The notes: a model not told the origin generated them from the sequence alone. Numbered from the stretch's first letter, positions 1 to 7,678 are shown. The stretch: 7,678 nucleotides of DNA from Desulfobacterales bacterium (GCA_022361315.1 JAKSBB010000912.1:1-7678); one strand, 5' to 3'. Numbers and translations: made by a program.

Positions 1-423
1 CAGTTGCTCACCATCAACAAGATCCCCGATCTCATTGCTGCCGGGCTGCTCAACATCACGGACAATCTGTACATGATATGGGCCCTGATCATCTTTTTTC
101 TGCTGTTCATGGGCATGTTCATGGAAACCCTTGCCACCATCATGCTGGTCACCCCGGTGCTGTTGCCGGTGATGATCTCACTGGGGGTAGATCCTATCCA
201 TTTCGGCGTGGTCCTGGTCTGCTGCTGCGAAATCGGCTTTGCCACTCCCCCGCTGGGAGAAAACATGTTCATCGCATCCGGGGTGGCCAAAACCACATTG
301 GAGGAGATCTCCGTCAATGCATTGCCCTTTGTATTCGTCAGTGTACTGGTGGTCTTTCTCATTGCCTATTTTCCGTCGCTGACCCTCTGGCTGCCCAATG
401 TCCTGGAATCGATTTTCCAGTAA
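1..423 (+). CDS. dctM: TRAP transporter large permease subunit (DctM family), C-terminal fragment
   Basis: This is the last 140 codons of a gene whose start lies before the window; the frame is already open at base 1 and stops at TAA 421-423. TRAP large subunits form the Na+-coupled channel that imports organic acids or sulfonates delivered by a periplasmic binding protein. Three hydrophobic stretches are visible, at about residues 24-62, 67-95 and 106-132. The pattern GMFMETL followed by TPVLLPV, then a DPIHFG loop, then ATPPLGENMF and ASGVAK is the typical C-terminal TRAP/DctM signature, in which a TPP-x-G turn sits in the substrate channel. Complete family members are about 430 residues, so roughly two thirds is missing. 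An unusual triple cysteine (VCCCE) sits just before the TPP motif. The binding protein and small subunit are not in the window and probably lie upstream. The substrate cannot be read from this part. Confidence 0.93.
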   Translation, partial: QLLTINKIPDLIAAGLLNITDNLYMIWALIIFFLLFMGMFMETLATIMLVTPVLLPVMISLGVDPIHFGVVLVCCCEIGFATPPLGENMFIASGVAKTTLEEISVNALPFVFVSVLVVFLIAYFPSLTLWLPNVLESIFQ

Positions 424-488: not shown

Positions 489-1616
489 TTGAACAGCAAA
501 GAACGCGTACTGACGGCACTGGATCACAAGGACACCGACCGGGTTCCTCTGGATCTGGGGGGCCGTCAGACCACCCTGATGATCCCTGCCTATGAAAAGC
601 TCAAGACATATCTGGGGTATGAGGATATTGACACTCGGATCATGTCCCATATCTGGCAGACCGTCTATGTGGACGAGAAGATTCTCAAACATTTTTCCAT
701 TGATACCCGGCATATCCGGCCTAAAAATAAGGCCTTTGCCCCGGATAAACCTTTTAAGGATGAAGAGGTGTTTTACGATTCCTGGGGGGTGGGCCGGAAG
801 ATCAGCGGTGGCTATGCCAACCTGAGCGTACATCCCCTTCAGAAGGCCGCGACCCTGGAGGAGATCGAAGCCCACCCCTGGCCGGACCCGGACGAAGAGT
901 TTGATTACACCGGGTTACGGGACGAGGCCAAAACCCTTTACGATGCGGGGGAATATGCCCTGGTGGGGTGCATGGGATCTCCGGGCAACACCTATGAGCA
1001 GGCCTGGTACCTGAGGGGATTGTCCGAGTTTTTCCTGGATATGGGCATGAACAAGGAGTTTGCCCACGCCCTCATGAGAAAGGTGACGGATCACCGGAAA
1101 AGAAGTGCGGAACTTTACCTGAAAGAAGTCGGGGAGTTCATTGATGTGATTCAGGTGGCGGACGATCTCGGCGCCCAGAACACCTCTCTGATGTCACCCG
1201 CATCTTACAGGGAAATCATCAAGCCGTATCAGGCGGAACTTATTGCCCATATCAAGCAGTTTACCAAGGCGAAAGTCTACCATCACAGCTGCGGTGCCAT
1301 CACCAACCTGCTGGATGACATGATTGAGATCGGTATTGAAATCCTCAATCCGGTCCAGGCCACGGCCGTGGGCATGGAAACCGATCAGCTTAAAAAGCGT
1401 TTCGGGGACCGGCTGACTTTCTGGGGGGCCATCGACACCTTTGAGGTGCTGCCCAACGGCAGTGTCGATGATGTGAGAAAAGAGGTGAATCTCCGCATCA
1501 AGGACTTAAGTCCCGGCGGGGGCTATGTACTGGGCTCCGTGCACAACATGCAGATCGACGTACCGCCCGAGAATGTTGAAGCCATGTTCGAAACGGCCCT
1601 GGCTTATAAAGGTTAA
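489..1616 (+). CDS. Uroporphyrinogen decarboxylase superfamily protein (MtaA/CmuA-like)
   Basis: The product has 375 residues. The start is TTG 489, chosen because GGAGGA at 475-480 lies 8 nt upstream and the protein then begins MNSKERVLTALDHKDTDRVP, the usual opening of this group. The superfamily includes heme-pathway HemE and the zinc-dependent methyltransferases (MtaA, MtbA, CmuA) that move methyl groups between corrinoid proteins and thiols. Visible landmarks are PLDLGG near residue 23, MGSPGNTYEQAWYLRG in the middle, an HHSCG motif (H266, C268) like the HxC zinc ligand pair of the methyltransferases, and a C-terminal SPGGGYVLGSVHNMQIDVPPEN. The third zinc cysteine, usually in the glycine-rich C-terminal turn, is absent: residues 343-345 are all Gly. 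It is therefore unlikely to be HemE and may not be a canonical corrinoid methyltransferase. No corrinoid protein is seen nearby. It follows the TRAP gene by 65 nt and is probably co-transcribed with it. Its real substrate is unknown. Confidence 0.88.
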   Translation: MNSKERVLTALDHKDTDRVPLDLGGRQTTLMIPAYEKLKTYLGYEDIDTRIMSHIWQTVYVDEKILKHFSIDTRHIRPKNKAFAPDKPFKDEEVFYDSWGVGRKISGGYANLSVHPLQKAATLEEIEAHPWPDPDEEFDYTGLRDEAKTLYDAGEYALVGCMGSPGNTYEQAWYLRGLSEFFLDMGMNKEFAHALMRKVTDHRKRSAELYLKEVGEFIDVIQVADDLGAQNTSLMSPASYREIIKPYQAELIAHIKQFTKAKVYHHSCGAITNLLDDMIEIGIEILNPVQATAVGMETDQLKKRFGDRLTFWGAIDTFEVLPNGSVDDVRKEVNLRIKDLSPGGGYVLGSVHNMQIDVPPENVEAMFETALAYKG

Positions 1617-1626
1617 TTTTTTTTCG

Positions 1627-1675
1627 TCAATATATTTTATAAAATATTTTATGTTATTTTTCATAAAAATATTGA
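1627..1675. repeat. Long AT-rich inverted repeat with internal 16-bp palindrome
   Basis: TCAATAT-a-TTTTAT (1627-1640) pairs with ATAAAA-ATATTGA (1663-1675): 13 paired bases with one bulged A at 1634. Nested inside, ATATTTTATAAAATAT (1632-1647) is a perfect 16-base palindrome. The dyad lies just upstream of, and touches, the candidate -35 box at 1672. It could be a regulator or nucleoid-protein binding site, or the weak 3' end of the upstream transcript. AT-rich sequence makes chance palindromes more likely, so its function is uncertain. Confidence 0.4.
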
Positions 1676-1707
1676 TCCCAACATCTGTTTAGGATATTAG
1701 ACGCCAT

Positions 1708-1720
1708 CCACACGGTGTGG
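1708..1720. promoter_or_regulatory. Candidate operator, palindrome CCACAC-G-GTGTGG
   Basis: This is a perfect 6+6 base inverted repeat around one central base. It lies 8-20 nt downstream of the candidate -10 element and 11 nt upstream of the AAGGAG ribosome site. That is where a repressor would block initiation or early elongation. It stands out as a GC-containing island in an AT-rich spacer. The GntR/FCD regulator encoded at 6637 is a natural candidate ligand, since such dimers bind short inverted repeats, but this is inference. As RNA it could fold only into a 5-bp stem with a 3-nt loop. Confidence 0.45.
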
Positions 1721-1742
1721 TGATTAGAAAAAGGAGAAAAAA

Positions 1743-3053
1743 ATGGAGTATATCAAAAAAGCAGAAAAAACCGCGGAAGGCAATTCAGACCGCATCCGCG
1801 GCACTGTGAAGGAGATACTCGCAGATATTGAAAAAAACGGCGAACAGGCCGTCATGGACCTGGCCAGAAAATTCGATAACTGGGAAGGGGAATTCGTTCT
1901 CAGCCCCGAGAAGAAAAAGGCCCTCATCGACCAGGTGCCCGACCAGGTGAAGGCAGATATCCGGTATGCCCACGAACAGGTATCTGCTTTTGCCAAGGCC
2001 CAGAGAGATAGCCTTACGGAATTTGAAACCCAGCCCCTGGACGGGGTCCGCCTGGGGCAGCGCATCATCCCCATGGATGTGGCGGGATGTTACATCCCGG
2101 GCGGCCGTTTTGCCCATGCCTGCTCTGCCATCATGAGTGTGGCCACGGCCAAGGCCGCCGGTGTGAAGACCGTTATTGCCTGTTCTCCCCCCCGTGGCGA
2201 CTCCATTGCCCCGGCAGTGGCCTATGCCCTGGATGTGGCAGGCGCGGACATTATTATTGAAATGGGCGGAGTTCAGGCCATCGCCACCATGGCTTTCGGG
2301 CTTTTCACCGGGAAACCCGCCAACATCCTGGCAGGTCCGGGCAACGCCTATGTGGCCGAGGCCAAAAGCATTCTCTCCGCCCAGGGCAGATGCACCATAG
2401 ACGTCTTTGCAGGCCCCACTGAATCCGCCATTATCGCAGATAAAACCGCGGATTACATGACCGTTGCCATTGACCTTGTTTCCCAGGCGGAACACGGGTA
2501 TGATTCCCCGGTATGGCTCTACACCGATTCCAGGGAACTGGCCGAAAAGGTATTGGAAACCATGCCCAAAATCATAGCCGACATGCCCAATCCGGAAGTA
2601 CCCGAATCCTCATGGCGGGATTACGGGGAAATCATCCTCTGTGAAGACCGGGAAGAATTGTGCCGGGTCAACGATGACTACGCAGCCGAGCATGTCCAGG
2701 TGATTGCCGAAGATCTGGACTGGTGGGTGGAGAATCTCACGGCATATGGCTCTCTTTTCCTGGGTGAAGGATCCACCGTACCCCACGGTGACAAATGCTC
2801 CGGCACCAACCATATTCTGCCCACCAAAAAGGCGGGGTACTACTCCGGCGGCCTCAACGTGCATAAGTTCCTGAAAATCTACACCTACCAGGAGATTTCC
2901 GAAGACGCCAACCTCACCGTGAGTGCGGCGGCATCCCGGCTGTCCCGTGTTGAAGGCATGGAAGGCCATGCCCGGTCCTGCGACTGGCGTCTGCGTAAAT
3001 ATTTCCCGGACCAGGAATGGGATTTTGAGGTATACAACCAGACCAAATATTAG
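1743..3053 (+). CDS. HisD-family NAD-dependent dehydrogenase (histidinol dehydrogenase / sulfopropanediol dehydrogenase HpsN-like)
   Basis: The product is a soluble 436-residue enzyme of the zinc-dependent histidinol dehydrogenase family, which oxidises a primary alcohol through a bound aldehyde to a carboxylate using two NAD+. All key positions of E. coli HisD have counterparts: zinc ligands Q248 and H251 (SQAEHG), D350 (HGDKCSGTNH) and H409; catalytic E316-H317 (AAEHVQ); H357 (GTNHILPT); and E404 (EGMEGH). The cofactor-side motifs AGCYIPGGRFAH, LAGPGNAYVAEAK and DVFAGPTES are intact. The length is normal for the family. ATG 1743 has AAGGAG 6 nt upstream. It heads a four-gene block and is followed after 12 nt by a DegT-type gene. 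No other histidine-biosynthesis gene is present, so a catabolic role is more likely than histidine synthesis. HpsN, the family member that oxidises 2,3-dihydroxypropane-1-sulfonate to sulfolactate, is the closest functional model. A related amino alcohol such as cysteinolate is another possible substrate. Family certain, substrate inferred. Confidence 0.92.
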   Translation: MEYIKKAEKTAEGNSDRIRGTVKEILADIEKNGEQAVMDLARKFDNWEGEFVLSPEKKKALIDQVPDQVKADIRYAHEQVSAFAKAQRDSLTEFETQPLDGVRLGQRIIPMDVAGCYIPGGRFAHACSAIMSVATAKAAGVKTVIACSPPRGDSIAPAVAYALDVAGADIIIEMGGVQAIATMAFGLFTGKPANILAGPGNAYVAEAKSILSAQGRCTIDVFAGPTESAIIADKTADYMTVAIDLVSQAEHGYDSPVWLYTDSRELAEKVLETMPKIIADMPNPEVPESSWRDYGEIILCEDREELCRVNDDYAAEHVQVIAEDLDWWVENLTAYGSLFLGEGSTVPHGDKCSGTNHILPTKKAGYYSGGLNVHKFLKIYTYQEISEDANLTVSAAASRLSRVEGMEGHARSCDWRLRKYFPDQEWDFEVYNQTKY

Positions 3054-3065
3054 GAGACGATACCC

Positions 3066-4265
3066 ATGAGTACCACGCAATTTACCAAAGATTTCACCCA
3101 GCAGGAACCCATTCCCGAGGCCGGTATCGAACGGGCACTGGAAGTGATGAAATCGGGCAAGCTTCACCGGTACAACGTGGCCGCAGGTGAAAAAGGGGAG
3201 GCGGCGTTGCTGGAAGAGGAATTTGCAAGCTACATGGGCAAGAAATACTGCCTGGCCTGTTCTTCCTGCGGGGCTGCCATGTATATCGCCCTGAAAAGCG
3301 CCGGGGTGAAACCGGGTGACAAGGTACTCTGCAATGCATATACCCTGGCGCCGGTACCCGGTGCCATTGAGAACACCGGAGCCAAGATCGTCCTTGTGGA
3401 CATTGTGGACGACTACACCATCGACCTGGATGATCTGGCGGAAAAGGCCAAGGCGGATGATGTACGTTGGTTCATGCTCTCCCACATGCGCGGCCATATC
3501 ACCGATATGGACCGGATCACGGAGATATGTGAGGCCAACGATCTGACCCTCATCGAAGACTGTGCCCATACCATGGGGGCGTTCTGGGGCGGAAAGAAAT
3601 CCGGCAGCTTCGGTATTGCCGGTTGTTTTTCCACCCAGACCTACAAACACATGAACTCCGGCGAAGGGGGGCTGCTCGTCACCGACGATGCGGAACTCAT
3701 TGCCCGGGCCATTATCCATTCCGGCTCCTACATGCTCTACGAACGGCATACCGCCCGTCCGGATATGGCGGTGTTCGAATCCCTGAAAACCCAGGTGCCA
3801 AACTACTCCAGCCGTATGGATAATCTCCGGGCCGCCATGTTGCGGCCCCAGCTGGCCGACCTGGACACCCAGTGCCAGCGCTGGAATGACCGGTACGATC
3901 ACCTGGAACGGGGACTGAAGCAGATTCCAGGGCTTTTTGTGCCTGACCGGGACCCCAGAGAGGTGTATGTGGGATCCTCCATCCAGTTTTCACTGAATGA
4001 CAGGTCCGAAGCAGAGATCCGCCGCTTTCTGGACCGGTGCATGGAACGGGGGGTTGAACTCAAGTGGTTTGGCAACAAGGAACCCGTGGGATTCACTTCC
4101 GCCTACGAATCCTGGAAGTACCTGGGGGATCTGCCCGATCTGCCCAACACCAAACGGATACTGGCGGTGATGTGCGATATGCGGATTCCCCTGACCTTTA
4201 GCATTGAGGATTGCGACGTCATCCTTGAGATCATCGCAGATACGGTAAAAGAGATTTTAACATAA
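3066..4265 (+). CDS. DegT/DnrJ/EryC1/StrS-family PLP-dependent aminotransferase
   Basis: The product has 399 residues and a fold-type I PLP aminotransferase layout. Visible landmarks are CSSCGAAMYIAL near residue 67 (the phosphate-binding region after the family's conserved first loop), IEDCAHTMGA with D165 to contact the pyridine nitrogen and H168 nearby, and STQTYKHMNSGEGGLL with K194 as the Schiff-base lysine. The C-terminal domain starts around residue 270. Family members usually aminate keto-sugars using glutamate or glutamine as donor. No nucleotide-sugar or polysaccharide gene is present here, so the usual role does not fit the neighbours. In this block it might transaminate a small 2-oxo or aldehyde intermediate, for example sulfopyruvate or sulfolactaldehyde if the pathway is sulfonate degradation; that is inference. 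Its SD (AGGAG, 3052-3056) overlaps the TAG stop of the preceding gene, indicating translational linkage. RidA follows after 26 nt. Confidence 0.9.
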   Translation: MSTTQFTKDFTQQEPIPEAGIERALEVMKSGKLHRYNVAAGEKGEAALLEEEFASYMGKKYCLACSSCGAAMYIALKSAGVKPGDKVLCNAYTLAPVPGAIENTGAKIVLVDIVDDYTIDLDDLAEKAKADDVRWFMLSHMRGHITDMDRITEICEANDLTLIEDCAHTMGAFWGGKKSGSFGIAGCFSTQTYKHMNSGEGGLLVTDDAELIARAIIHSGSYMLYERHTARPDMAVFESLKTQVPNYSSRMDNLRAAMLRPQLADLDTQCQRWNDRYDHLERGLKQIPGLFVPDRDPREVYVGSSIQFSLNDRSEAEIRRFLDRCMERGVELKWFGNKEPVGFTSAYESWKYLGDLPDLPNTKRILAVMCDMRIPLTFSIEDCDVILEIIADTVKEILT

Positions 4266-4291
4266 TAAGGTAACGACACAGGAGACAACAT

Positions 4292-4672
4292 ATGTCCAAA
4301 ACCATTATCAGCACGGATAAAGCCCCTGCCGCCATCGGTCCCTACTCCCAGGGCGTGGTCACAGGCAACCTGCTCTTTACGTCGGGCCAGCTCCCCATTG
4401 ACCCTGCCACCGGCAAAATTCCCGAAGGCAGCATTGAAACCCAAGCACACATCGTGTTCAAGAACCTGTCTGCCATTGCAGAACAGGCCGGCACCAGCCT
4501 GGACAACGCCGTTAAAACAACGGTGTTTCTCGCGGACATTGCGGACTTTGCCAAGGTAAACGAAGTGTATGCCCAGTATTTTAACGACCCGTTTCCCGCC
4601 CGATCTGCATTCCAGGTGGCGGCCCTGCCCCTGGGAGCGGATATAGAAGTGGAAGCAGTATTTGAGATTTAA
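4292..4672 (+). CDS. ridA: RidA family enamine/imine deaminase
   Basis: The product has 126 residues, the normal length for a RidA (YjgF/YER057c/UK114) subunit, which works as a cytosolic trimer. RidA hydrolyses the unstable 2-aminoacrylate/2-iminopropanoate released by PLP enzymes to pyruvate and ammonia, and so protects other PLP enzymes from damage. The diagnostic residues are present: GPYSQG with Y18 near the N-terminus, TSGQLPIDPATG, and PARSAFQVAALP with R104 (equivalent to the carboxylate-binding Arg of E. coli RidA), followed by E119 of the IEVEAVFE strand, matching the catalytic Glu. AGGAG at 4280-4284 lies 7 nt before ATG 4292. It sits directly between a PLP aminotransferase and a PLP beta-eliminating lyase that would release 2-aminoacrylate. 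A dedicated clean-up role for that lyase is therefore the simplest reading. Confidence 0.95.
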   Translation: MSKTIISTDKAPAAIGPYSQGVVTGNLLFTSGQLPIDPATGKIPEGSIETQAHIVFKNLSAIAEQAGTSLDNAVKTTVFLADIADFAKVNEVYAQYFNDPFPARSAFQVAALPLGADIEVEAVFEI

Positions 4673-4705
4673 TAAAAGAAATTACCCATAAAGGAGATCA
4701 ACCAG

Positions 4706-5707
4706 ATGAACTTTACCCAATTTCCCAGACGCCCCTACCTGAACGGCCCCACCCCCATTGAATCCATGCCTTCTTTGAGCGAGGCTCTGGGCGGAAAGGT
4801 GAACCTTTACATCAAACGTGACGACCTGCTGCCCGGCGCTGCAGGCGGCAACAAAACCCGTAAACTTGAGTTCTGCATCGCCGACGCCATGGAACAGGGC
4901 GCCGACACCATCATCACCTGCGGTGCGGTCCAGTCCAACCACTGCCGTCTGACCGCCGCCTGGTCCGCCAAAGAAGGCCTGGACTGCCACCTGGTGCTGG
5001 AAGAGCGTGTTGAAGGCTCCTATAAAAAAGAAGGCTCCGGCAACAACTTCCTGTTCGAACTGCTGGATGTGAAAACCATCGAAGTAGTTAAGGGCGGTTC
5101 CGATATGATGGCTGAGATGGGTAAAAAGGCTGACGAGCTCAAGGCCCAGGGTAAGAAACCCTATATCGTTCCCGGCGGCGCCTCCAATGCCATCGGTGCC
5201 CTTGGCTATGCGGCGTGCGCCGAAGAAACCATGAATCAGCTCAACACGGCCGGCCTGGCCATTGACCATATCATCGTCCCCTCCGGTTCCGCCGGTACCC
5301 ATGCCGGTATGGTTGTAGGTATGAACGGTATGAACACCAACATTCCCGTATCCGGTGTGAACGTTTCCAGAACCAAAGATGTCCAGGAAGAACTGGTATT
5401 CAAACTGGCCGTGGAACTGGCGGAAAAACTGGGTGTTAAAAGCGGCGTGGAAAGAGATGCCTTTGTCTGCTTTGACCAGTATGTGGGACCGGGATACTCT
5501 ATCCCCACCGACAGCATGGTTGAAGCGGTAAAACTCTTTGCCAAGACCGAAGCCATTCTGCTGGACCCGGTATACTCCGGTAAAGCGGCAGCCGGTCTCA
5601 TCGACCTGGTGCGCAGCGGCCATTTCGCTGAAGGCGCCAATGTCCTGTTCCTCCATACCGGCGGCTCTCCTGCATTGTTCGCCTATATGGATACATTCAG
5701 ACAATAA
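4706..5707 (+). CDS. cuyA: PLP-dependent L-cysteate sulfo-lyase / D-cysteine desulfhydrase family enzyme
   Basis: The product has 333 residues and belongs to the fold-type II PLP family that includes D-cysteine desulfhydrase (DcyD), L-cysteate sulfo-lyase (CuyA) and ACC deaminase. These enzymes perform beta-elimination: cysteate gives pyruvate, ammonia and sulfite; D-cysteine gives pyruvate, ammonia and sulfide. Motifs in order are IKRDD; AGGNKTRKLEF with K50 as the likely PLP lysine; GAVQSNHCR with S77-N78-H79 over the substrate; PGGASNAIGALGY; PSGSAGTHAG as the phosphate-binding loop; GPGYSIPT; LDPVYSGKA; and HTGGSPALFAY. The AAGGNKTRKLEF, CGAVQSNHCRLT and EERVEGSY stretches resemble, from memory, CuyA-type proteins more than E. 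coli DcyD, hence a tentative symbol. AAGGAGA lies just before ATG 4706. Codon use is shifted: the ten Arg codons are CGT, AGA or CGC with no CGG, and there is no GGG Gly codon, although both are common next door. That suggests strong expression. It ends the tight block and is followed by a strong hairpin. Confidence 0.85.
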   Translation: MNFTQFPRRPYLNGPTPIESMPSLSEALGGKVNLYIKRDDLLPGAAGGNKTRKLEFCIADAMEQGADTIITCGAVQSNHCRLTAAWSAKEGLDCHLVLEERVEGSYKKEGSGNNFLFELLDVKTIEVVKGGSDMMAEMGKKADELKAQGKKPYIVPGGASNAIGALGYAACAEETMNQLNTAGLAIDHIIVPSGSAGTHAGMVVGMNGMNTNIPVSGVNVSRTKDVQEELVFKLAVELAEKLGVKSGVERDAFVCFDQYVGPGYSIPTDSMVEAVKLFAKTEAILLDPVYSGKAAAGLIDLVRSGHFAEGANVLFLHTGGSPALFAYMDTFRQ

Positions 5708-5721
5708 GCCATACGTACAAC

Positions 5722-5754
5722 TGCAGCCCGTTTCCCATGGGGAGACGGGCTGTA
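5722..5754 (+). other. Strong 15-bp RNA hairpin after the lyase gene
   Basis: TGCAGCCCGTTTCCC (5722-5736), loop ATG (5737-5739) and its complement (5740-5754) form an uninterrupted 15-bp stem with two G-U pairs. It begins 15 nt after the lyase stop codon. No T-run follows (the next bases are TACAAGCG), so it is not a standard intrinsic terminator. A role as a 3' stabiliser or processing/attenuation structure that sets the racemase apart from the four-gene block is more likely. The loop ATG is in frame with the downstream racemase gene but has no ribosome site. Confidence 0.7.
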
Positions 5755-5758
5755 TACA
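5751..5758. promoter_or_regulatory. TGTATACA palindrome, possible GntR/FCD operator
   Basis: TGTATACA is a perfect 8-base palindrome, flanked as GC-TGTATACA-AGC, 24 nt before the racemase ATG. GntR/FCD regulators often bind palindromes with a GTATAC-like core, and such a regulator is encoded 0.9 kb downstream. The site overlaps the 3' arm of the hairpin, so DNA binding and RNA folding would use the same bases. An 8-base palindrome can occur by chance; there is no supporting second copy outside coding sequence in this window. Confidence 0.3.
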
Positions 5759-5781
5759 AGCGTATAAACCGAGGAAAAATC

Positions 5782-6525
5782 ATGTCCGGAAACGAAGAAA
5801 AAACAGCAGGCATCCTGGGCGGAATGGGGCCCGAAGCCACCGTGGACCTGATGCAGCGGATCATCGCCCTGACACCTGCACTGGACGATGCCGACCATGT
5901 TCGTTGTATTGTGGACAACAACCCCAAGGTGCCGTCCCGGATCAAGGCCATCATTGAAGGCCATGGCGAAGATCCCGGCCCCTGCATGGCAGATATGGGG
6001 CAACGGCTTGAAACCTGGGGTGCGGATTTCCTGGTCATCGCCTGTAATACCGCCCACCATTATTATCCGGCCGTTCGCGAGGCCGTGGATATTCCGGTGA
6101 TTCATCTCGTGGGATTGGTGACCGATCACATCATGCGCGTCTATCCCGATCATAAGAACATCGGCATACTGGCGTCTCCGGCCGTGAACATGACCGGGCT
6201 GTACACCGAAAAGTTTACCCCCAAAGGCCTTAGGGATGTCTGGCCGGATGAGGCCCACCAGGCGCAGATGCTTGACGTGATCAAATCCGTTAAGAAAGGG
6301 GACACCGGCCCCGAAGTGGTGGAACAATACCAGGCGGTCTGCAGTCATCTGGCTGAAAAGGGTGCCACTTTGGTGGTGGTGGCCTGCACGGAACTCAGCG
6401 CCCTTGACAGTGAGTTGCCGGTGGAAGCGGTGGATGCCGCCCAGGTGCTGGCCCGGGAAATCGTTGACGTGGCGAAGAATAAGAAAAGCATCTCAACCTA
6501 CGATACGGAAACAAGTGGTGCATGA
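5782..6525 (+). CDS. Aspartate/glutamate racemase family protein
   Basis: The product has 247 residues and belongs to the cofactor-independent Asp/Glu/hydantoin racemase superfamily, which inverts amino-acid stereocentres using two cysteines as acid/base pair. Both are present: C88 in ACNTAH and C202 in ACTELS. The N-terminal GILGGMGPEAT and the DNNPKVPSR stretch are typical of aspartate racemases. ATG 5782 was chosen because GAGGA (5771-5775) lies 6 nt upstream. An in-frame ATG at 5737 would add 15 residues but lies in the hairpin loop without a ribosome site. The gene is 74 nt behind the lyase. In context it could convert D- and L-forms of the acidic amino acid fed to the lyase; cysteate is a structural analogue of aspartate with sulfonate in place of the side-chain carboxylate. 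Plain aspartate or glutamate racemisation is possible too. The C-terminal 15 residues are polar and probably disordered. Confidence 0.9.
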   Translation: MSGNEEKTAGILGGMGPEATVDLMQRIIALTPALDDADHVRCIVDNNPKVPSRIKAIIEGHGEDPGPCMADMGQRLETWGADFLVIACNTAHHYYPAVREAVDIPVIHLVGLVTDHIMRVYPDHKNIGILASPAVNMTGLYTEKFTPKGLRDVWPDEAHQAQMLDVIKSVKKGDTGPEVVEQYQAVCSHLAEKGATLVVVACTELSALDSELPVEAVDAAQVLAREIVDVAKNKKSISTYDTETSGA

Positions 6526-6636: not shown

Positions 6637-7290
6637 TTGGCAGAAAATAAGTCTTCCATGAAGTCCCTGCGGGCCTATGAGAAGATCCGTGATATGATAT
6701 TAAGCGGCGTCAAACGGCCGGGTACCCGCCTGATTCTTTCTGAACTGGAAGATGAGCTGGGCATTGGCCGGGGCCCTATCCGGGAAGCCCTGATGCGGCT
6801 GGACCGCTCCGGTCTTGTAAAAAACATTCCCTATAAAGGGGCCGTGGTGGCCACACCGCCCACCTTAAAAGAGATCCTTCATATTTACGATCTCCGGGTG
6901 GATCTGGAAGTTAAACTGGCCCTTGAGGCCATGGCGCATCTCACTGAGGCGGATTATGATGCCCTTGAATCCATTCTGGATACCATGGAGACCCTGCCCA
7001 AAAACCGGTACAGCTACGACCGGCAGTTCCACAATCATATCTATGAGGCGTCACAACTGCCGCACCTGGTGGCCATTGTACAGAATCTGATACTATCCGT
7101 GGAAAGTGTGCTCAACATCTACCGGTGGGATGCGGATATGTGCCGGCAGTTCAACCGCGAGCACCGGGCAGTGCTGGACGCCTTAAAGGCCGGGGACCGG
7201 GATGCGGTCCGGGATAATCTTACCCAAAACATCAAGAACGGCCTCGACATCATCAACGAAACCTACAGCAAAATGGTCCGTATTCCCTGA
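6637..7290 (+). CDS. GntR family transcriptional regulator with FCD domain
   Basis: The product has 217 residues. An N-terminal winged helix-turn-helix (about residues 11-72: AYEKIRDMILSG, LSELEDELGIGRGPIREALMRLDRSGLV, then a KNIPYKGAVVA wing) is followed by an all-helical FCD ligand-binding domain (about 78-210). FCD domains often bind a metal and a carboxylate effector through Asp and three His. Here D128 and H132 (DRQFHNH) and H176 (REH) are visible, but the usual final His is N198 (TQNIKNG), so metal binding may be altered or lost. Start TTG 6637 has AGGAG (6624-6628) 8 nt upstream; the first in-frame ATG, at 6658, is within the normal N-terminus and less well placed. Regulators of this class typically repress neighbouring catabolic operons until the substrate or an intermediate binds. 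The likely targets are the palindromes at 1708 and/or 5751 (inference). Confidence 0.93.
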   Translation: MAENKSSMKSLRAYEKIRDMILSGVKRPGTRLILSELEDELGIGRGPIREALMRLDRSGLVKNIPYKGAVVATPPTLKEILHIYDLRVDLEVKLALEAMAHLTEADYDALESILDTMETLPKNRYSYDRQFHNHIYEASQLPHLVAIVQNLILSVESVLNIYRWDADMCRQFNREHRAVLDALKAGDRDAVRDNLTQNIKNGLDIINETYSKMVRIP

Positions 7291-7334: not shown

Positions 7335-7678
7335 ATGGGATCTTCATATGAAAATTGGGGTATCACAATCGAAGAACGTCAATTAAAGTTTCCCTGTGAC
7401 CGGTTTGCCCATCGGTTTTCAGGTGCTTGGTTCCGGGGAATTACTATCTGCGCCGAACCTGAAAATGTTTTCAAGTGGCTTTGCCAGATGCGGGTGGCAC
7501 CTTACAGCTATGACTGGATTGACAATCTCGGGAGGATAAGCCCCCAGAAACTCATACCTGGCCTTGATCGACTCGAGATCGGCCAGAACATCATGACGAT
7601 TTTTGAATTGATTGATTTTGCGCCAGGAAAGTTTTTGACGGTCTCGCTGAATCCCAAGCTTCAAAAAGTATTCTTCAG
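7335..7678 (+). CDS. SRPBCC-like hypothetical protein, N-terminal part cut by window end
   Basis: An open frame of 114 codons runs from ATG 7335 to the window edge without a stop. GGAGG (7322-7326) lies 8 nt upstream, a good ribosome site, and the gene is only 44 nt after the regulator, so the two are probably co-transcribed. The protein is soluble with no signal peptide. The stretch APYSYDWIDNLGRISPQKL (from residue 55), then GLDRLEIGQNIM and FELIDFAPGKFLTVSL, resembles uncharacterised proteins of the SRPBCC/polyketide-cyclase ligand-binding fold, where a hydrophobic pocket binds a lipid or other small molecule. I recognise the pattern only from memory and cannot assign a function. Nothing links it clearly to the operon upstream beyond position. 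The complementary-strand frame over the same bases lacks a comparable start context. Confidence 0.72.
   Translation, partial: MGSSYENWGITIEERQLKFPCDRFAHRFSGAWFRGITICAEPENVFKWLCQMRVAPYSYDWIDNLGRISPQKLIPGLDRLEIGQNIMTIFELIDFAPGKFLTVSLNPKLQKVFF

Follow-up and report, generated by a model that had tools for sequence, protein, structure and literature searches.

What substrate is served by an operon that joins a relative of histidinol dehydrogenase (HisD) to an aminotransferase and to predicted enzymes of cysteate breakdown? The question is raised by a 7678 bp stretch of DNA from a Desulfobacterales bacterium (GCA_022361315.1 JAKSBB010000912.1:1-7678), the whole of which is called the window below. 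Every called gene in it lies on the plus strand, and five of them, encoding an HpsN-like dehydrogenase, a DegT-family aminotransferase, RidA, CuyA, and CuyB, form a compact run (Table 1). The five frames are open and co-directional, with intergenic gaps of 12, 26, 33, and 74 bp and GGAG-like stretches before their starts, which upholds the gene order given in an initial sequence-only reading of this DNA. That reading had further proposed that the genes degrade a C3-sulfonate, with cysteinolate and, in its title, dihydroxypropanesulfonate (DHPS) as candidates. The C3-sulfonate pathway stands, as it ends in CuyB and CuyA; of the two substrates, cysteinolate taken straight to cysteate is the better reading, on a slight balance of probability, and DHPS the less likely one. 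We therefore propose, with rather more confidence than doubt, that the operon encodes the cysteinolate branch of C3-sulfonate catabolism, in which cysteinolate would be converted to cysteate and then to pyruvate, ammonia, and sulfite.

The route would open with the HpsN-like enzyme binding cysteinolate (2-amino-3-hydroxypropanesulfonate) at its zinc through the amino and sulfonate groups, and oxidizing the CH2OH group with two NAD+ to yield cysteate. HpsN itself converts DHPS to sulfolactate, and HisD converts histidinol to histidine. As their family assignments predict, CuyB would interconvert L- and D-cysteate, and CuyA would split D-cysteate into sulfite and 2-aminoacrylate, the latter to be turned into pyruvate and ammonia by RidA (or water). 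DegT would interconvert cysteinolate and the prochiral ketone 3-hydroxy-2-oxopropanesulfonate, itself one oxidation from DHPS. Conceivably, a DHPS-derived ketone feeds cysteinolate into the route by this reaction, or one enantiomer of cysteinolate is remade as the one that the HpsN-like enzyme accepts. In a sulfate reducer, the sulfite would finally become sulfide.

The dehydrogenase and the cysteate enzymes

The sequence-only reading had called the first enzyme HisD-like, a label that is correct as to family and needs correction as to type, which is that of HpsN. The best matches of the protein in the PDB are CpHpsN (8v35, E 9e-152) and an (R)-DHPS dehydrogenase (8wwe, 2e-144), compared with 9e-62 for the best HisD, and in an alignment it shares 54% identity with CpHpsN but 30% with L091, the HisD from the genome of its closest relative. 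It carries G-R-F-A-H (within PGGRFAHA), in which a Phe replaces the Tyr of the HpsN motif G-R-Y-[AS]-H and the sulfonate-binding His is present; in HisD-type enzymes, G-S-A-P-L takes the place of this motif (PMC11382572). The HisD-type motif does not occur in the window protein, and L091 reads PGGKTPLV at this point. The sulfonate-binding His (His126 of HpsN) is retained in the window and in the 44 linked relatives aligned, as are the catalytic Glu318/His319 and Asp352, plus Lys353 (EH and DK), with roles as described for HpsN (PMC11382572). The genome of the closest relative (G001) holds two members of PF00815, the HpsN-like gene and the separate HisD-motif gene L091. What is shared with HisD is thus the family, the zinc/NAD chemistry, and the logic of oxidizing an amino alcohol to an amino acid; what differs is the HpsN motif with its sulfonate-binding His, the distant identity to L091, and the retention of a separate HisD in the closest relative.

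For an enzyme of HpsN type, oxidation of cysteinolate to cysteate would be a small step, since L-cysteate was crystallized in CpHpsN with NADH, where it mimics the product sulfolactate, and the amino group of the HisD substrate occupies the zinc site at which HpsN places a hydroxyl (PMC11382572). Congruent with this, RpHpsN oxidizes L-histidinol, if 691-fold less well (PMC11131964); CpHpsN shows no L-histidinol oxidation (PMC11382572). The CpHpsN geometry also suggests that L-cysteate would be the product. Provision of D-cysteate for CuyA would then depend on CuyB, and the presence of a racemase would be explained.

By model score, the lyase is a predicted cysteate sulfo-lyase, as the sequence-only reading had it: it exceeds the curated cut-off of the CuyA model (Table 1), whereas among the D-cysteine desulfhydrase equivalog models the highest score is 307 bits, below that model's cut-off of 429. 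The earlier "Asp-racemase-like" label is right in naming a racemase and can be sharpened, again by model score, to a predicted cysteate racemase, CuyB. Because both proteins lie above curated equivalog cut-offs, cysteate is the node that the upstream enzymes have to reach. RidA has an arginine, Arg104, within PARS, which we take to be the catalytic one. The combination of racemase and D-cysteate sulfo-lyase is that of known cysteate dissimilation (Liu et al. 2024, J Biol Chem 300:107371, cited in PMC11382572). The window differs from that system by the HpsN-type dehydrogenase and the DegT enzyme in the operon, and by the standing of cysteate, which would be an intermediate and not the imported substrate.

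In a maximum-likelihood tree built from 91 PF00815 proteins (rows shorter than 400 aa and four regions repeating a locus were excluded), the DegT-adjacent HpsN-like proteins form a single group with 44 rows (support 99/93). Its sister group of nine rows (96/79) contains CpHpsN and enzymes encoded beside hpsO and/or hpsP, and the window protein falls outside it. This sister group, here called DHPS-type, also includes L048, which lies beside DegT, and L128 and L129, which lie beside neither hpsO nor hpsP. Both types occur in one genome, at separate places and with different neighbors, in G005 (L005 and L116) and in G027 (L037 and L115). Eighteen positions separate 45 linked rows, which include the window and leave out L048, from eight comparison rows, among them L128 and L129 although these are not hpsO/hpsP-adjacent. 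Four residues are invariant in all 45 linked rows (Ser247, Gln321, Asn374, and Ser400 in CpHpsN numbering), and Gln321 sits two residues past the catalytic His319. Two other positions were considered as marks of cysteinolate specificity and dropped. Ser226, a carboxylate contact, is Thr in the window, and Thr also occurs there in roseobacter HpsN (L122, L128, L129); Thr357, within SGTNH, is likewise found in enzymes of hpsN-O-P clusters (L118, L127).

Linkage across genomes and the DegT aminotransferase

The gene set co-occurs well beyond the window, a point that the sequence-only reading had proposed to check. The best 80 of 542 confirmed DegT relatives in a species-genome collection were examined with their surroundings, a sample biased to close kin. 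Linkage in these loci was counted over all open reading frames (ORFs) of at least 80 aa, and many contigs are cut; a home-made gene caller missed DegT itself in L029, L032, L043, L045, L067, L070, L075, and L080, and an HpsP beside hpsN in L122 that is visible by coordinates. An HpsN-like gene adjoins degT on the same strand in 47 of the 80 loci. Within the DNA fetched around these 47, cuyA is seen in 33, cuyB clearly in 22 (26 with weak matches), ridA in 15, and dctM in 23; cuyA and cuyB surround degT in three further loci (L012, cut at its start, L055, and L062), and the remaining 30 have no adjacent hpsN and no cuyA seen. A fairer test is an even draw of 147 genomes from the class of the window's relative. 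At E <= 1e-100, 13 of these genomes have HpsN-family proteins (14 matches) and nine have the DegT, and all nine degT genes adjoin an HpsN-like gene whose identity to that of the window is 66% or more (Fisher p 1e-11 for co-occurrence). One HpsN-like gene at 65% identity, at a contig start in G164, is not followed by degT, and no degT adjoins the four matches of 58% or lower. CuyB exceeds its cut-off in 7/9 DegT genomes versus 17/138 of the others (p 4e-5); in 14 named control genomes, CuyB and CuyA each do so in one. The genes hpsN, degT, cuyA, and cuyB share a single run in many Desulfobacteria, and Oceanimonas has hpsN-degT in one run with cuyA and cuyB. The linkage is retained in both Thermodesulfobacteriota and Pseudomonadota. 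That hpsN and degT are linked is not due to chance, and DegT, left without a function in the sequence-only reading, is the partner found most constantly with this HpsN type.

What, then, might DegT do? Its pyridoxal phosphate (PLP) lysine, K194, is invariant in 30/30 aligned proteins; a His at this position would mark a dehydratase. The AlphaFold model has a mean predicted local distance difference test score of 91.6, and the closest folds are BtrR (E 1e-28), AHBA synthase, and Fic25. The best sequence matches are to scyllo-inosose and AHBA enzymes, followed by nucleotide-sugar enzymes, and none of the 12 NCBIfam models listed for it reaches its cut-off. To judge by sequence, DegT is a typical sugar-type aminotransferase. 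Its invariant columns are spread along the whole protein despite rows as low as 57% identical, which suggests that one substrate is served throughout. DegT most likely interconverts cysteinolate and 3-hydroxy-2-oxopropanesulfonate, because cysteinolate alone lies both one transamination from C2-oxidized DHPS and one four-electron oxidation from cysteate. Cysteinolate and this ketone, 3-hydroxy-2-oxopropanesulfonate, have both been detected in DHPS-producing algae (PMC11131964). A precedent for aminating a C3 hydroxyketone is RtxA, a transaminase that converts dihydroxyacetone phosphate to serinol phosphate (PMC3222319). The reaction of its N-terminal domain, in which a C3 hydroxyketone bearing an acid group at one end is aminated, is the chemistry predicted here for DegT, and RtxA is cited as a precedent for the reaction only.

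Two further settings of this aminotransferase bear on its substrate. In three Desulfofustis loci (L019:403-8410, L023:7572-11197, and L025:7615-11920), a divergent HpsO gene is followed by a SerC-like aminotransferase, DegT, and GntR. DegT thus adjoins HpsO, which here shares 71-83% identity with the HpsO from an hpsN-O-P cluster. G018 and G021, the two of these genomes that were searched, each give one PF00815 match with a HisD-like score and so probably have no HpsN. The SerC-like protein lies above the NF003764 phosphoserine-transaminase cut-off and may be an ordinary SerC. HpsO is annotated as DHPS-2-dehydrogenase (PMC4334477; PMC11382572), at odds with a report that it yields sulfolactaldehyde (PMC11131964); the linkage to DegT would favor the ketone as its product.

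The other setting is the roseobacters, in whose family 80 of 100 genomes have the DegT. In L057-L080, from roseobacters and other Alphaproteobacteria, the orthologue is about 60% identical, several copies lie beside phosphoglycolate phosphatase and glmU, and no hpsN or cuy genes are seen beside degT except in L062 and L063. One might tentatively view the whole subfamily, as a possibility clearly less likely than not, as a dedicated cysteinolate transaminase that joins the marine pools of DHPS and cysteinolate: with an HpsN-like enzyme in sulfate reducers, Oceanimonas, and Amphritea, with HpsO in Desulfofustis, and in roseobacters as the biosynthetic step toward a cysteinolic-acid head group. 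A roseobacter lipid has cysteinolic acid as its head group (PMC11631085), and the biosynthesis of this sulfur aminolipid is described as not established (PMC8319176, PMC11631085). A published list of 37 genes specific to producers of this lipid (PMC8319176) includes no aminotransferase, but as it omits genes shared with the two non-producers, it counts neither for nor against DegT. Near hpsN-degT in Amphritea (L046:12334-16226) lie genes for a transporter of EamA type, for a PlsB-like acyltransferase, and for a 494-aa protein that matches no NCBIfam model, a neighborhood with a possible link to lipids; the same genome has no CuyA above its cut-off.

Cysteinolate against other substrates

The choice of cysteinolate has to be weighed against several observations that count against it. 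DHPS-type HpsN has the same motif and shares most of the substrate contacts, so that the substrate cannot be read from them; none of the 18 clade-specific positions is known to contact the substrate, and the clade split has moderate support at both nodes. L048 lies beside DegT, yet its HpsN belongs to the DHPS-type group. The combination of HpsN and CuyA in some Alpha- and Gammaproteobacteria and Thermodesulfobacteria has already been assigned to DHPS (PMC11382572), and most of the operons import by a tripartite ATP-independent periplasmic (TRAP) transporter, as DHPS clusters do. The oxidation of cysteinolate to cysteate needs no DegT, although DegT is the most constant partner. In the ORF count, 14 of the 47 hpsN-degT loci are without cuyA (some lie on cut contigs, and in L028 cuyA is itself cut); of 47 genomes scanned, 33 have CuyA above its cut-off and 14 do not, and the latter include the hpsN-degT-bearing G031, G033, G034, G036, G038, and G044.

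Several of these points lend weight to the main and strongest rival, a DHPS route in which the HpsN-like enzyme would oxidize R-DHPS to R-sulfolactate, an unlinked sulfolactate dehydrogenase would give sulfopyruvate, and DegT would be the unnamed aminotransferase that makes L-cysteate for CuyB and CuyA. This account is a serious one that we nonetheless regard as somewhat unlikely. It would give DegT a necessary job, and HpsN with CuyA is a recognized pathway, reported also from Thermodesulfobacteria; for R. pomeroyi, the gene of its aminotransferase is said not to be known (PMC11382572). It would suit L055, where cuyA-degT-cuyB stands without an adjacent hpsN in a genome that has a DHPS-type hpsN-O-P cluster (L118). 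It would also suit Shimia litoralis (L128:4754-7750, minus strand), where hpsN-cuyA-cuyB form one run on their own with a 4-nt gap and a 4-nt overlap; lyase and racemase lie above their curated cut-offs. This smallest candidate pathway observed also counts in favor of cysteinolate, as the best HpsP match of its genome is 78 bits; since its HpsN is in the DHPS-type group, it can be read either way. One point against the DHPS route is its middle step. No 2-hydroxyacid dehydrogenase, and so no sulfolactate dehydrogenase, is found among the extra operon genes annotated (a few short genes lay outside the scan), and Ldh_2 (ComC type), the only sulfolactate dehydrogenase type sought as opposed to SlcC/SlcD, occurs in 8/35 genomes with the operon or parts of it and was not found in the other 27, the complete genome of Desulfoluna limicola included. 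The conversion of sulfolactate to sulfopyruvate, as in the known HpsN-CuyA route, is for these reasons not visible, though the enzyme could lie elsewhere in the genome. Furthermore, HpsP at 45% identity or more is found in 0/80 DegT loci, and HpsO in three, all of them the Desulfofustis loci without hpsN; full-length HpsP at 46% or more occurs in 5/47 genomes (G005, G037, G039, G041, and G043) among the matches listed, a list cut off below E 3e-6. Conversely, hpsN has no DegT neighbor in the DHPS-type clusters L115, L116, L118, L127, L141, and L142, and the named structures nearest to DegT act on ketones of cyclitols and sugars and are not known to act on 2-oxo acids. Finally, an APC amino-acid permease lies directly 5′ of hpsN in two Desulfovibrionaceae loci (L034, L036), and in L055 the genes upstream of cuyA-degT-cuyB, beyond a divergent regulator, encode an amino-acid ABC transporter of GlnQ/GlnP type; these importers point to an amine-bearing substrate.

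The other rivals have less to recommend them. CuyA, CuyB, and RidA could form a cysteate-utilization operon of their own, with the HpsN-like enzyme and DegT serving another sulfonate that is not converted to cysteate. This is improbable: while it would account for the hpsN-degT loci without cuyA and for the genomes without CuyA above its cut-off, it fits poorly with the enrichment of CuyB in DegT genomes of the even draw and with the single runs of Desulfobacteria and Oceanimonas. Alternatively, DegT could strip the terminal amine from 3-amino-2-hydroxypropanesulfonate to give sulfolactaldehyde, which the HpsN-like enzyme would oxidize to sulfolactate. HpsN uses sulfolactaldehyde better than DHPS (PMC11382572), HpsO is reported to make this aldehyde (PMC11131964), and 2-hydroxy-3-aminopropanesulfonate is reported from a red alga (a title cited in PMC8319176). 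Such a route would, however, stop at sulfolactate, for which the operon genes annotated include neither a lyase nor a dehydrogenase, and it would leave CuyA and CuyB without a substrate; we consider it very improbable. Least credible, to the point of being nearly negligible, is a chance neighborhood in which the histidinol dehydrogenase and D-cysteine desulfhydrase of ordinary amino-acid metabolism lie together. The HpsN-like protein does pass the cut-off of the TIGR00069 hisD model (401 bits versus 244), but this model cannot separate HpsN-type proteins. A plain pair of this kind was rejected on the motif, identity, PDB matches, and model scores given above, and the retention of the linkage in two phyla also stands against it.

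The proposed cysteinolate route would bring known families together in a new combination. The hpsNOP pathways of DHPS degradation in Cupriavidus and Ruegeria, with their SuyAB, Xsc, or CuyA branches, share with it an HpsN-family four-electron dehydrogenase, in some cases a TRAP transporter, and, with CuyA, one known desulfonating end (PMC11382572). The DegT-linked loci examined differ in that no hpsP or hpsO lies beside hpsN, DegT is fixed beside it, HpsN falls in the sister clade, and no sulfolactate dehydrogenase is among the operon genes annotated. Taurinivorans muris, a gut sulfonate respirer, also has hpsN with a TRAP transporter, as hpsN-dctPQM-suyAB, but desulfonates by SuyAB and does not grow on racemic DHPS or cysteate; the excerpted description of its cluster mentions no DegT (PMC10507020). 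A pathway for the degradation of cysteinolate was not found in the open-access literature searched, which covers the occurrence of cysteinolate, lipids, DHPS, and sulfoquinovose; Burchill and Williams 2022 or Liu et al. 2024 might propose one. Cysteinolic acid was present in all dinoflagellates, haptophytes, diatoms, and prymnesiophytes of one survey and can exceed the levels of dimethylsulfoniopropionate (PMC8703288). If the proposal is true, a five-gene route in Desulfobacteria and Desulfovibrionaceae leads from an algal sulfonate to sulfite, and on to sulfide where the host reduces sulfate, and the labels histidinol dehydrogenase and sulfopropanediol 3-dehydrogenase that proteins of operon-bearing genomes now carry are wrong. 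DegT would also be a concrete candidate for the unnamed cysteate/cysteinolate aminotransferase and for the biosynthesis of cysteinolate in roseobacters.

Layout of the window and neighboring genes

Table 1. Features of the window, with positions counted from its first nucleotide.
Feature	Position	Strand	Evidence
TRAP large permease DctM, C-terminal 140 aa only (cut by window edge), putative sulfonate importer	1..423	+	PF06808 6e-30
URO-D / MtaA-like methyltransferase (corrinoid methyltransferase-type), accessory	489..1616	+	PF01208
AT-rich intergenic region with inverted repeats 5′ of hpsN, possible promoter/operator	1617..1742	.	18-nt arms 1627-1644 / 1658-1675, 78% complementary
HpsN-like Zn/NAD dehydrogenase, predicted cysteinolate dehydrogenase (four-electron, to cysteate)	1743..3053	+	CpHpsN 8v35, 8wwe; motif; clade
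DegT-family PLP aminotransferase, predicted cysteinolate / 3-hydroxy-2-oxopropanesulfonate transaminase	3066..4265	+	PF01041
RidA enamine/imine deaminase, would remove 2-aminoacrylate from CuyA	4292..4672	+	TIGR00004, 175 bits vs cut-off 106
CuyA, predicted D-cysteate sulfo-lyase	4706..5707	+	NF052482, 530 bits vs cut-off 450
CuyB, predicted cysteate racemase	5782..6525	+	NF052483, 280 bits vs cut-off 190; GAGG before start
GntR/FCD regulator, TTG start, likely pathway regulator	6637..7290	+	PF00392 + PF07729
ORF without Pfam match, cut by window edge	7335..7676	+	counterpart L001:14267-14803, 179 aa, also without Pfam match

The genes that flank the operon largely bear out what the sequence-only reading had named, a GntR regulator downstream and a TRAP permease upstream, with the qualification that the URO-D-like gene, which it did not mention, sits between the permease and the operon. 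The nearest loci come from Desulfobacteraceae and Desulfobacula. The closest of them, L001 from a Desulfobacteraceae metagenome-assembled genome (G001), has an identical gene order at 91-98% protein identity (96% for the HpsN-like protein) and shows the complete upstream part, in which dctP, dctQ, and dctM are followed by the URO-D-like gene and then by hpsN. The GntR/FCD gene also lies 3′ of cuyB in L001, L002, L004, L005, L006, L009, L010, L012, L013, and L037. For cuyB, the earliest ATG of the frame is at 5737, and the ATG chosen is the one with GAGG upstream.

Some variants of the operon carry additional genes. TauE/SafE sulfite exporter genes lie 3′ of gntR in two loci (L006:14216-14938 and L009:8649-9386), in keeping with sulfite as a product. 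In Desulfotignum (L022:5593-8331), genes for an opine-dehydrogenase-like protein and an amidohydrolase directly precede hpsN-degT-ridA-cuyA, and the pair may release an amine from a conjugate. In two others (L047:9836-11038 and L140:10360-11562), a threonine-synthase-like PLP enzyme follows hpsN-degT-ridA, and cuyA and cuyB are not seen; L050 has a similar gene (52%). This enzyme was considered as an L-cysteate lyase that would dispense with the racemase. It shares about 80% identity, however, with many proteins annotated as threonine synthase and passes a cut-off for that enzyme, and it stays a lead.

The URO-D-like gene is outside the conserved gene set, being matched in 2/80 DegT loci, in L001 at the same place and in L015 elsewhere on the opposite strand. 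Before hpsN, L014 has a gene for a B12-binding protein and L007 one for a radical SAM protein; given these genes and the URO-D-like one, methylated substrates may be locally involved.

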